Shown piece after piece: positions 18,800 through 53,357 of a stretch of 64,000 bases of DNA. Position 1 is the first letter of the stretch, and each line of letters begins with the position of its first letter. The notes under the pieces are model-generated. The model was not told the DNA's origin and did no database searches. It saw only the letters and a program-made list of their open reading frames with translations. Both the position numbers and the translations under genes were made by a program. Origin of the DNA: Polytrichum commune (Eukaryota > Streptophyta > Polytrichopsida > Polytrichales > Polytrichaceae); the NCBI GenBank assembly GCA_950295325.1, contig OX485803.1:60591554-60655553 (forward strand). The letters run 5' to 3'.

Positions 18800-20811
18800 G
18801 ATGCTCGTACCTAAAAATGTCCAAAGAGAGGTTGAATGCATTCTATATTTAAATCATTTAACTGATAAATTATCTGATAGATTATATGATTCATTCAATA
18901 ATGTAGCAAATGTGACTAAGTCATACATTCATGTTACTAATGCTCATGCTCATCTAGAGAGACTCGTTGTTCAAACCACACCCATAAAAGGAGGTCGTGG
19001 TAAAGATCTTCAACCTCACAAACGACGTACCCAAAGGGAGGTACTTGCGGCACGCGGAGGTGTGTTTCCAAGCATTGAGCTAGATGACTCTGAAAGAGAA
19101 GTACCGGTTAATTCAATAGAGATTGCAATCAACCTTCGTGAAGACATGAAAACTATAGGACCGTATGCAAGTAAACCTAGATGATGCCTTTTTGTTTTCA
19201 TGTATCACAATACTTGGAAGATGATTATAATCTAACTATTGTAGCTGAGGTTCGTAGTCGAAGTGATTGGCCCATGTGGGAAGAGACCATGAGATCTGAA
19301 CTAAAGTCTCTAATATTGAAGAAGGTTTTTAATCTAGTTGGGACTATGCCAAAAGGGATTAACCTAGAGGTTGTAAATGGGTGTTTGTGAGGAAACAAAA
19401 CAAGTTTGGAAACGTTTCTCAGTACAAAACACGGCTAGTTGCCCAAGGCTTCACCCAATGTCCATGCATTGATTATGAAGAGATGTATTCCCCTTTGGTG
19501 GACTCAATTACGTTCAGGTATCTCCTAAGTCTTGCAGTTGACAAGAAGTTCGAAACAAGATTGATGGATGCACTTACCGCGTACTTGTATAAGATATACA
19601 TGAGGATCCCTGTAGGCTTGGTGGAATTCCAAAATTCTCAAAGACAACCAGAATGCCTTAAACTTGAAAGGATATTGTATGGCCTTAAACATGCCGGTAT
19701 GATGTGGTACAAACATCTAACATATTTTTTGATAAATAAGGATTTTAAGAATAATGAGGTTTATCCATGTATTTTTATTAAACAAACTCACACAAAATTA
19801 GTTATCATGGTTGTATATGTTGATAATCTGAACATCATCGGTGCGACTGACGCCATTTCCAATATTGTTTCTCAACTCAAATATGAATTTGAGATGAAAG
19901 ATCTTGGCAAAACCACCTTCTGTCTTGGCCTACAGGTTCAGCACCTTGGAGGAAGTATTTTTTTACATCTGAGTTTGTATATTCAAAAGCTATTCAAGCG
20001 TTTCTCAATGGATGCGGCTCATCTAATAAGTTCCCCGATGGTGGTACAGTTATTGGATCTAAAGAATGATGAGTTTAGACCATGTGATGAGGGGGAGAAA
20101 TGTTTGGGACCTGAAACTCCATACTTGGCAGCAATAGGTGCATTAATGTATTTGGCAAATTCCACCAAGCCTGACATTGCATTTGCCGTTAATTTATTGG
20201 CTAGATTTAATGCTAAGCCAACAAAACGACATTGGAATGGTGTCAAACATATCATGTGATACCTCAAGGGCACTGAGGATCTAGAATTGTTTTATAAAGT
20301 TGGAGAGGATAGCAACATCAAAGGATATGTGAATGCAGATTACCTTTCCGATCCACATAAAGGGAAATCACAAACATGTTATGTTTTCCTTACACAAGGA
20401 GCGACAATATTTTGGAAATCGACAAAGCAAAGCCTTGTAGCAACATTTTGAAATCATTTAGACATCATAGCCCTGCACAAGGCTTCCCGCGAATGTGTTT
20501 GGTTGAGATTGGTAGATGGCTTCGTCAAAGGTTCTTGTGGTTTTTCTAATGTTCCAGGTTCTCCAAGAATGATCTATGAAGATAATACGGCATGCATTGC
20601 TCATATAAGGCGGGCTACATCAAAGGAGATTGAATCAAGCACATCCTACCAAAGGTCTTTTTCATTATTGGGATCAAATATAGATGTGATATAAGTTAGG
20701 TCTTCTGATAACCTAGTAGATTTATTCACTAAGTCATTACCAACAGCTAGGCAGAGGCAGATTGTTCAGGGAATGGGGATGCGAAGGTTTTCATCCCTAC
20801 ATGACATGTAA
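18800..20811 (+). pseudogene. copia pol remnant: reverse transcriptase and RNase H
   Basis: The first part (18800-19184) translates to the spacer that follows integrase in copia polyproteins (QREVE, VTKSY and similar). The reverse transcriptase runs from about 19230 and is open from 19381 to 20259, with the blocks TRLVAQGFTQ, DYEEMYSPLV, LYGLKHAGMMWY and KDLGKTTFCLGLQ. The catalytic motif reads YVDN instead of YVDD (near 19813), so the enzyme would be inactive. A TGA at 20257-20259 interrupts the frame. RNase H blocks follow (NADYLSDPHKGKSQT, ASRECVWLR, YEDNTACIA, SSDNLVDLFTKSLPT), with further stops near 20449 and 20695, down to a natural-looking TAA at 20809. Confidence 0.9.
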
Positions 20812-49376: not shown

Positions 49377-49961
49377 CTAGCAGGGGATATGGCAATGCCG
49401 CCTCCGGTGACAGTGACGGCGCCTGTAAGCGCACTTGGCCCTGCACCTGCGTCTGCGGTGTCCTCGTCGTCGGCTGCGTCGCCGCCTGCGGCTCCTGCTT
49501 CTTCTTCTGCGTCGTCGGCCATGGCACCTGCGCCTGCGATGGCACCTCCTGCGACAATTCCTGGCATACCTGTGATGGGTTCGTGAATGGGTCTTGCAGT
49601 ATCCGGTCGGGTAGCGGTGCGTGCGTTTGGGGACGTCCTCCTTGCCGTCGTCGGCCTCGGAGCCCGCCTTCTTGTCGCTGGGCTTGGATGTGAGCTTGTA
49701 GACGTCACCCGACTTCTCGATCACCCCGGTCTGCACGAGCGTCTGCAATGCGGACGACAAGATCTTCTGGCTGGCGGGGTTCAGGGTCTCCTCGTAATTG
49801 GCCTCCAGGTGCTTGCGGATGTCGGTCAGGCTGGCCCCGTTCTGCTGCTTCAGGTGCAACATGGCGTCGCGCAGCAGATTGCACGTTGTGTTGGTTGTCG
49901 TCATGGCGCTGCGCAGCTTCGAGGAGGTGCCCGGCTTCGCCGAGAACTGGAATGTTTTCAT
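49377..49961 (-). CDS. linker histone H1-domain protein with protamine-like arginine/cysteine tail
   Basis: One open frame encodes 194 residues from the ATG at 49961; an alternative start is the ATG at 49904. The frame is open further upstream only from a GTG. Residues about 25-95 form an H1/H5 winged-helix domain: LLRDAMLHLKQQNGASLTDI, then ILSSALQTLVQTGVIEKSG, then VYKLTSK. A short acidic linker follows (about 97-108), then a histidine/arginine stretch. The last 59 residues hold 33 arginines, 8 cysteines, 7 histidines and only one lysine, in runs such as RRRCHRRRRCHGRRRRRR. An ordinary plant H1 has a lysine/alanine/proline tail. This layout fits a sperm protamine precursor derived from H1, as known from bryophyte sperm chromatin, and would act in the sperm nucleus, where cysteines could cross-link and cysteine/histidine could bind zinc. 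Sperm expression is inferred. The stop lies next to a tandem repeat, so the C-terminus may be altered. Confidence 0.8.
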   Translation of the reverse strand: MKTFQFSAKPGTSSKLRSAMTTTNTTCNLLRDAMLHLKQQNGASLTDIRKHLEANYEETLNPASQKILSSALQTLVQTGVIEKSGDVYKLTSKPSDKKAGSEADDGKEDVPKRTHRYPTGYCKTHSRTHHRYARNCRRRCHRRRRCHGRRRRRRSRSRRRRRSRRRGHRRRRCRAKCAYRRRHCHRRRHCHIPC

Positions 49962-50735: not shown

Positions 50736-52520
50736 ACAGAAATTGGAGTCTAGATCTAGGTCATCTGACCACACTGCATGATTCTCAGAATGCTTATAAG
50801 TTGCCAGTAGAGATGAGTAGGCAGTGGTAGGAAGAGGAGAATGATTACCATGATGCTATTACGTCCGGCGATGATCATCAACACATATTGCTAGTTTGTA
50901 TATCAACATGCATGCTTACACAGAGGAGAAATAACCATATTCAAAGTGGTGCAAAAAACCCACATTCATAAATTGTATCGTCCGATGAACACATAAACCT
51001 TGCAGTGAGCTAAACAAAAACCTAGCGATTTCAAAGAAACCCAAACCAGTGAACTCAAGTAAATGTGGCGAAATTTGGTTCACATCCCAGAACCACCACA
51101 GGTGAGTGTTCACCATGTTGCACTATTATTACCTGGTCTAGTGAATTTTAGGTGACTAGTTTAGGAGTGGAACGCTTGCTTTCTCCTACAGGTTACGTAC
51201 TACATGAGGCCCCTGTGTTTGAAGAGACAGCACTTGAAGTGCTGCATGACCCACCTAATCTCAACTCTTGATGTCTGACACTCCTTGAGTTCTAATCAAG
51301 ATGCTCGAAGCCCGTAACTTTGTACTTTGATACCTGAGACGTGTGCAATCGTTTTGTCAACGAACAGCGTAGCTTGAGCTTTGAAATACTCAAGTACATG
51401 TTGTGAAAGAACTTTAATTAACACGGTGACATGGAGTGAACACTTTTCCTTAATCTCCCTGTTGTGACTGAGCTGCTACATTGAATGACGGAGCTTTGTC
51501 AGTATTATTGTCTCAGGGCGAAGACCTTAGCATGGAATGTAAATTAGCCTCCAAATCCGCGACATCTTCTTAAAAGCGTACCGATTTAGGTTCTACCTTA
51601 ATTCCAAACACAGCTCGCACTTTTCAAAGCAAGGTCAGAAGCTGAATCGTTCAGTCTACAACATAATTGAAAATCTGACTCTGATTGTAACGTGCGATAG
51701 AAAATTAGGAAAATTTGTAAATTTTCCCCCACAGGTGTACAACACATAGTCTTGTGTTTGCCTGCAAGAATCGATGTTGGATTCATCTGTACTTAATTGT
51801 TCATAATCCTTGCGTCCCAATAATTGGTGCCTTTTGCATTCGGAGACTTTGTGTTGCAATATATGGTACGTTTCTTAGGTATCAGTAATATCGGACACAT
51901 TTTCATTGGCTAATCGATACTCGGTCATACATAGTGCTCAGGCAGCGCTGTTTTATTTATTTTGCATAAAGATTGATCCCAACATGCGGTATTTTTCAAG
52001 CCAAAAGTGAAGGAGAAACCAATAATTCACTCTTTAAGTATACATCAAGTGACAAATTCTGAGAATAGGTGGTTCTATAAGCAGAGCCTGGGGGGAACTT
52101 ATGCATGTAAATATCAATATCTGAAATATTCTAATGCTAATGGAGGTGCCCTAGATCCTTGTGATCACATTTTGGAGATAATGTTGTGGAAAACTACATG
52201 ACAAATGAAATCCAATTATTTTTATTTTTATTCAGAACTAGATAAGTAGCATATGTGGGTCAATAAATATATATATATCATAAAACAGGCATGGAAATAC
52301 TAGCCTGGCGCTGAGATAATTACAGTCATGATTAAATATCACAAGCAGAATAAGTAGAGATCATCTTCTGTAATACAGAAATAATGTGAAGTCATATAGT
52401 TTTGATACTATTGAAATTGACTACCACAACACATTTTGATGATTTATACCTCTGCTTATTATTTAGGGGGAGTTACCACCTCGCGCGACTGTTGTATAAA
52501 CATCTTGAGCCGGCTGTGAA
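50736..52520. other. intergenic DNA, no gene recognised
   Basis: Moderate GC, no supported coding frame. An (AT)n run lies near 52270-52278. A TTTAG followed by GGGGAG near 52465-52470 could be a splice acceptor for the gene at 52521, but there is a stop in frame just before that ATG (52506-52508), so the coding region probably begins at 52521. Confidence 0.45.
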
Positions 52521-53357
52521 ATGAAGGACTGTCCCGGGGAGATAAGTGATGAGGAGAAAGAAAGAGCACTTATGATAGCCGAGGAGGAGCGGCTCCGTGA
52601 ACGGCCATTCCTCCACCGCACAGTCGATTTGATCATCGATCGAGAAACTATCGAGGGGAAAGTTCTACGGGAGCTCGGCAACAAAATCACCGGACACCCA
52701 CCAGTCAAAAAATGGGACCTACGCATGGTGACCACTAAAGAGAGGGACCGCGGCATCGGCGTGCCGACCCCGCGTGAGCAATTTGATAGAGATATGAAGG
52801 CAAAGGAGCACCGGAAGCGAGCCATGTCCGAGTGCGGAGCGCCCAAGCCACCACCTAAGCCCAAACCCCGCCGATGCTCCAACAAGCCGAAACTAGACAA
52901 CTGGTTGGGCCGGCGGCGGTCGAGGGCCCGAGCATCCATGCTCGTGCATCGGACCTCAGTAGCCGGAGCCCAGAGAGGATCCGCGTTGCTGCAACGTGGG
53001 TCCATATTCTTCGACCATAAGAGGGAGTCCATACGGCGAGCCTCGGTGAGAAGACAGAGCCAACAACTGGGCGGGACAGATGTGGCAGCCCTGGAAGCCG
53101 CAAAGACCGTCACGGGTGTCAACCTCGACAATGTGGTCGACACGTCGTTCCCCGTGCAAGTGGCGTCGGATTCGCTTGGAAAATACAAGGAGAAGGTTGA
53201 CAATCTCGCAGCAAACACAGGCCCACTTTGGGATCCCCGCTTTTTCCGGGACTGGAAAACATACAAACATGATATGCCTTACACTAAGTTCTTCCGCACA
53301 GAAGATTACTTGCAGAACCCCTTGAGTACCTACAAAGCAGCCCTCCATAACATGTAG
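52521..53357 (+). CDS. unrecognised basic 278-residue protein
   Basis: An open frame from ATG 52521 to TAG 53355, bounded upstream by an in-frame TGA at 52506. I do not recognise the family. The N-terminus is acidic and charged (SDEEKERALMIAEEERLRER). A central basic, proline-rich stretch (about 100-125, PKPPPKPKPRR) leads into an arginine/serine-rich segment (about 130-180) with repeated RAS/RGS/RRAS words that look like basophilic-kinase sites. The C-terminus is aromatic and acidic (LWDPRFFRDWKTYKHDMPYT, then FFRTEDYLQNPLSTYKAAL). No signal peptide, membrane segment or catalytic motif is seen. Codon-level composition is gene-like and GC-rich against AT-rich surroundings. The pattern of short motifs spread along a basic chain resembles microtubule-associated or ciliary accessory proteins, but this is only an impression. 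The neighbouring H1/protamine-like gene makes a sperm role worth testing. The 267-residue frame on the opposite strand is a shadow. Confidence 0.65.
   Translation: MKDCPGEISDEEKERALMIAEEERLRERPFLHRTVDLIIDRETIEGKVLRELGNKITGHPPVKKWDLRMVTTKERDRGIGVPTPREQFDRDMKAKEHRKRAMSECGAPKPPPKPKPRRCSNKPKLDNWLGRRRSRARASMLVHRTSVAGAQRGSALLQRGSIFFDHKRESIRRASVRRQSQQLGGTDVAALEAAKTVTGVNLDNVVDTSFPVQVASDSLGKYKEKVDNLAANTGPLWDPRFFRDWKTYKHDMPYTKFFRTEDYLQNPLSTYKAALHNM

Follow-up and report, generated by a model that had tools for sequence, protein, structure and literature searches.

A linker-histone gene with an arginine-, cysteine- and histidine-rich tail in Polytrichum commune and its place in a family of putative protamine precursors

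In the moss Polytrichum commune a single reading frame joins an H1-type winged-helix domain to a tail dominated by arginine, cysteine and histidine, and the locus raises the question of what such a protein might do and how a tail of this kind came to follow a linker-histone domain. The gene, here called gene A, lies in a stretch of 64,000 nucleotides that was analysed as a whole (the window), and it is an intact frame of 194 codons running from ATG to TAG at window positions 49377-49961 on the minus strand. Its parts are as follows.

49377..49961 (-): gene A coding frame (194 aa plus stop), an H1-type winged helix with an Arg/Cys/His tail
49713..49880 (-): linker-histone domain, residues 28-83 (Pfam PF00538 and AlphaFold2 model)
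49635..49679 (-): acidic hinge SDKKAGSEADDGKED, residues 95-109, directly ahead of the basic tail
49380..49628 (-): basic tail, residues 112-194 (composition and AlphaFold2 model)
49575..49610 (-): motif PTGYCKTHSRTH, residues 118-129, with the spacing C-x2-H-x3-H
49380..49556 (-): Arg/Cys/His run of 59 residues (136-194), marked in a first-pass annotation of this DNA

The linker-histone domain and the basic tail

The first-pass annotation had placed an H1/H5 domain and a basic tail in one frame, and this holds: the 194 aa frame is open, and the Linker_histone family (PF00538) matches residues 28-83 with an E-value of 1.8e-7 and 31.7 bits, over a Pfam cut-off of 22.4, with four other families, winged-helix or unrelated, scoring more weakly and each below its own cut-off. 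An AlphaFold2 model built from an input of three sequences (mean pLDDT 60, pTM 0.38) has residues 21-90 as a winged helix (block pLDDT 72-90), with helices at 13-40, 45-55 and 62-78 and strands at 81-84 and 87-90, and gives the tail, in line with disorder, pLDDT values mostly below 50. When the model was compared with the PDB by Foldseek, cullin winged helices came out on top, KAT6B/MORF ranked third, H1.0 seventh and H5 48th, and no cullin, KAT6B/MORF, H1.0 or H5 row had E <= 0.001. Cullin winged helices were also the best rows with VIA-align, and a sequence search of the PDB up to E 1 gave a single match, the winged helix of KAT6B (E 0.0024), which is not an H1. Since the fold comparison gives H1 no edge over other winged helices, the structure backs the winged-helix class only; the H1 assignment of gene A rests on Pfam, and the predicted fold is generic. 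The start used here is the ATG of the first-pass annotation. A second in-frame ATG is present at residue 20, where the start of paralogue B (see below) aligns with it in the DNA alignment, and this ATG or an upstream exon is also a possible start.

An exact recount agrees with the composition first given for the last 59 residues (33 Arg, 8 Cys, 7 His, 1 Lys), and the full basic tail of 83 residues contains 38 R, 11 H, 9 C and 3 K, with neither D nor E. The remark that such a protamine-like tail is at odds with the lysine-rich tails of plant H1 is borne out within the same genome: the exon of the ordinary H1 (L004/L012) has, past its first 70 residues, 43 K, 6 R and no H or C among 164 residues. 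This somatic H1 is of the same domain family, with 35% identity to gene A in the domain alignment, yet its tail is Lys-rich and, in the exon read, free of Cys and His, unlike that of gene A; a TAG inside the matched stretch fits a split gene. Gene A, with PF00538 over its cut-off and a modelled winged helix, thus has the domain of an H1/H5 linker histone, lacks the Lys-rich C-terminal tail of a plant somatic H1 (3 K against 38 R) and combines in one frame the H1 domain and Arg-rich, predictedly disordered tail of a PL-type sperm nuclear basic protein (SNBP).

Paralogues and a repeated tail unit

With the gene A protein as query at E <= 10, a search of the window's own assembly (408 Mb, 64 contigs) gave five matches, namely gene A itself, B on contig C6 (E 5.0e-27, 48% identity to gene A), C on contig C7 (E 6.6e-13, 50% identity) and, on contig C4, the ordinary H1 (E 0.0061) and a further H1-like frame (E 0.71). 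Each of the two paralogues, B with 174 aa and C with 155 aa, is an open frame over the Pfam Linker_histone cut-off, and all three genes have a common layout in which the winged helix is followed by a short acidic stretch and then by an Arg-rich tail devoid of acidic residues. Acidic residues close the hinge stretch in B and C as they do in A, and the length after the last of them is 85 aa in A (45% R), 90 aa in B (40% R) and 76 aa in C (54% R). The tails differ in their cysteine and histidine content, with 9 Cys and 11 His among 83 residues in A, 3 Cys and 12 His among 85 in B, and 2 Cys and 23 His among 75 in C. Judged by these sequence comparisons, gene A is a member of a three-gene family and not a lone oddity.

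A search of the genome with the Linker_histone family found at least eight places (counts are lower bounds), every one over the cut-off: the ordinary H1, A, B, C, L014, L015 (the same as L005), L018, which we take to be a fragment resembling a TRB-type gene, and a fourth arginine-containing frame, D (L019). A tree of seven H1 domains had, at 92/93, a split between A, B, C and D on one side and the ordinary H1 with two H1-like proteins on the other; none of its four inner branches was starred, three were open, and D formed a long branch. D itself (L019 1468-1728, minus strand; genome C6:5482170-5482430) is an H1-like frame of 87 aa with 17 R and 5 Cys, situated 33 kb from B, with an Arg/Cys stretch at its N-terminus, an HPKY motif and no C-terminal tail. 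Just downstream of it, at about 1230-1310 of L019 (-), there is by eye an apparently decayed partial copy of its 3' end. L014 1471-2103 (+) and L005 961-1734 (-) encode related H1-domain proteins that start with MGNK..., have basic tails and differ from the ordinary H1. When B was the query there were six matches, the added one being weak (E 0.09); it lies on contig C1 (L010, genome C1:45517508-45517912, +), has five in-frame stops and is perhaps a relic or chance.

The tail of B is modular. A pattern recurs in it three times at intervals of exactly 87 bases, each copy reading P[HT]GRCK[TY]H, in units that open with FPHGRCKTHRRYHKK, LPTGRCKYHRRWHKR and LPHGRCKYHRRYHKR and that all have the Cys/His spacing C-x2-H-x3-H. 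Tandem Repeats Finder reported this repeat with a period of 87, 1.8 copies and 77% matches over 159 bases; units 1 and 2 have 18 of 29 residues the same, and the shorter unit 3 has 15 of 22 in common with either. Gene A has a single copy, PTGYCKTHSRTH, in frame and at the aligned place past the domain, so that the motif P[HT]G.CK[TY]H is found three times in B, once in A and not in C. The motif did not arise in any of the 200,000 shuffles made of each tail, a post hoc figure in that the motif had been defined from A and B, and the spacing C-x2-H-x3-H by itself is not unusual for gene A, occurring in 12.9% of shuffles. Genome-wide, the DNA pattern of the motif turned up 13 times and its reversed control 8 times; A and B account for four of the 13, and the nine others are probably due to chance. 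Among 3000 shuffled A tails, 82, 44 and 104 matched B units 1, 2 and 3, respectively, as well as A does, whereas the corresponding counts for C (2891, 1555 and 2872 of 3000) give no tie of the C tail to the B units. An expansion of repeats, one of two origins first suggested for the arginine content, therefore has a counterpart in the three units of B, but gene A has no more than a 26-base array of period 12.

Proposed role and alternative explanations

We consider it likely, from the sequences and by analogy with known systems, that A, B and C are H1-derived sperm nuclear basic proteins, i.e. protamine precursors, of a modular form rich in cysteine and histidine. The gene A protein would be made in developing sperm of a plant with swimming sperm, where the H1 domain would carry it to linker DNA and the arginine tail would neutralise and condense that DNA. 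Cleavage close to the acidic hinge may free the tail, as has been described for H1-type protamines of Marchantia, and the Cys and His residues of the tail could bridge adjacent tails through disulfides or metal ions, stabilising the packed nucleus. This role in sperm condensation is proposed because of the analogy with liverwort protamines and animal PL proteins. The genome has eight matches to the PACRG family, all over the cut-off, which fits an organism with flagella. In the 1 kb scanned upstream of gene A there is one AACCGT, at -547 on the reverse strand, and no TAACCG; we take both to be DUO1-type sites, and as gene A alone was scanned, the match was given no evidential weight.

Two alternatives concern the way in which the tail is read. 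As first noted, it is GC-rich (0.64, against 0.39 window-wide) and open in all three minus-strand frames, and a change of frame in an older H1 tail had been put forward as a source of its arginine, a claim about origin that is compatible with a protamine precursor. Of the two extra frames, the first stayed open in every one of 5000 synonymous-codon permutations and the second in 2.2% of 5000 when 83 codons were permuted or 9.3% when the last 59 were, so that the second is mildly unusual; openness in three frames is a weak signal that B and C do not share. When all three frames of the tails were compared among the paralogues, the arginine frame turned out to be the conserved one (composition cosines between A, B and C of 0.97, 0.95 and 0.95, against 0.83, 0.79 and 0.72 in one of the other frames and 0.65, 0.75 and 0.58 in the other), although arginine codon preference in the tails varies, with mostly AGG and CGC in A, mostly AGG in B and mostly CGT and CGC in C. 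The second of the extra frames is interrupted by five stops in each of B and C, and in A no alternative frame gives a lysine-rich reading. The agreement in composition and the stops together indicate that the tail did not come from a frame shift in A; moreover, A and B each have the P[HT]GxCK[TY]H motif in frame with the H1 domain, and B and C both keep the arginine frame. We regard the chance of such an origin as close to negligible. The tail could also be untranslated as read here if an intron removed most of it, for gene A contains a donor-like CAG|GTATG with the first intron base at about 49569 and AG dinucleotides downstream. However, B and C have no such site at the aligned position, all three genes continue in the same arginine frame, and the two strands of the window together hold 13 copies of AGGTATG, this one among them, which makes its presence in the tail unremarkable; splicing of this kind is very unlikely.

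Other alternatives concern the gene as a whole. That gene A is a chance open frame was ruled out by the Pfam match and the two intact paralogues. A decaying pseudogene of the family would be in keeping with A standing furthest from the other two (its domain has 38 of 60 residues in common with B and 30 with C, compared with 40 between B and C), but the open frame, the domain over the Pfam cut-off, the retained motif and acidic hinge and a dN well under dS make decay scarcely credible. Over 60 codons of the domain, dN and dS were 0.26 and 1.08 for A and B (dN/dS about 0.24), 0.39 and 1.13 for A and C (about 0.35), and 0.21 and 3.44 for B and C, where dS is saturated. A dN well under dS would be seen under any H1 function, including that of a linker-histone variant acting outside sperm, for example in spores or under stress, with a tail that is merely a strong DNA binder. 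Against this stand a tail (45% R, 9 Cys, 3 Lys) unlike that of the H1 of its own genome, the resemblance of its composition to that of protamines, and the presence of PACRG-family genes, and we think a non-sperm variant unlikely.

Known systems and the surroundings of gene A

A sperm protein derived from a linker histone has precedents. In the available text of the sources, a single liverwort is the known source of plant protamines derived from H1 (PMC13148410, PMC11607694): liverwort protamines are cleavage products of male-germ H1s (D'Ippolito 2019, cited in PMC13148410), an H1 origin that is also stated in PMC11607694, and the title of D'Ippolito 2019 indicates several such genes in Marchantia polymorpha. 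The Marchantia system (MpPRM, male-germ H1s) resembles gene A in that a plant precursor of H1 type carries a basic, protamine-like portion, and MpPRM, a protamine-like gene, is described as dependent on the sperm regulator DUO1 (PMC6290024). The cleaved region in Marchantia is Arg/Lys-rich, and the part of the source available makes no mention of C-x2-H-x3-H units or of a tail with nine cysteines (PMC13148410). Protamines as such are also reported, in the accessible portion of one paper, from Chara and the fern Marsilea (PMC10858212), and disulfide bridges via protamine cysteine are stated in another to enhance compaction (PMC12216123). Animal PL proteins (mussel, Nasonia) and Drosophila Mst77F have, like gene A, a winged helix with a disordered basic tail, and tail cleavage is noted for several of these proteins (PMC13148410, available text); they belong to animal lineages, and their likeness to A is one of architecture.

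No Pfam protamine family matched gene A at E up to 1, although low-complexity tails may fall to filters. Mammalian protamines P1 and P2 have Arg runs with Cys and His, and neither is known to have an H1 domain; any likeness to gene A would be convergent. A cysteine-rich moss protamine was absent from the matches listed for open-licence PMC articles, a weak result drawn from titles and the starts of abstracts. Gene A is best read as an H1-derived protamine precursor, a known kind, in a Cys/His-rich form that, among the PMC matches listed and by their partial texts, is seemingly undescribed. A further suggestion, which we offer tentatively and hold to be rather doubtful, is that a plant lineage independently built metal- or disulfide-bridged protamines from H1, that the P[HT]GxCK[TY]H-x3-H unit, with its C-x2-H-x3-H spacing, binds zinc or thiol-links tails, and that A, B and C split the work, with Cys and His in A, repeated units in B and His runs in C, in parallel to the mammalian protamine pair. 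If true, a family of three genes with Cys/His units would reveal a route from a lysine-rich H1 tail to an arginine protamine, by tandem units and in frame, and would provide a plant case for asking if sperm chromatin came to be cross-linked by disulfides or metal more than once in evolution.

Upstream of gene A by about 2.5 kb, on the opposite strand, there is an open frame of 282 codons (52509-53357, +) that matches no Pfam family at E up to 0.5 and, at E <= 0.001, nothing in the genome besides itself; because it matches only itself, local synteny is silent on how A, B and C arose. The window also contains three PHI-1 genes (PF04674; 10800-11804, +; 33700-34737, +; 42570-43577, -), with E-values of 1.2e-100 to 2.6e-99, and a reverse-transcriptase fragment at 19363-20259 (+; RVT_2, E 5.6e-46), presumably of copia type. 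The head of gene A (49629-49961, -) has a GC3 of 0.92, compared with 0.66 and 0.75 in the heads of B and C and 0.63-0.67 in four other genes or frames of the window.
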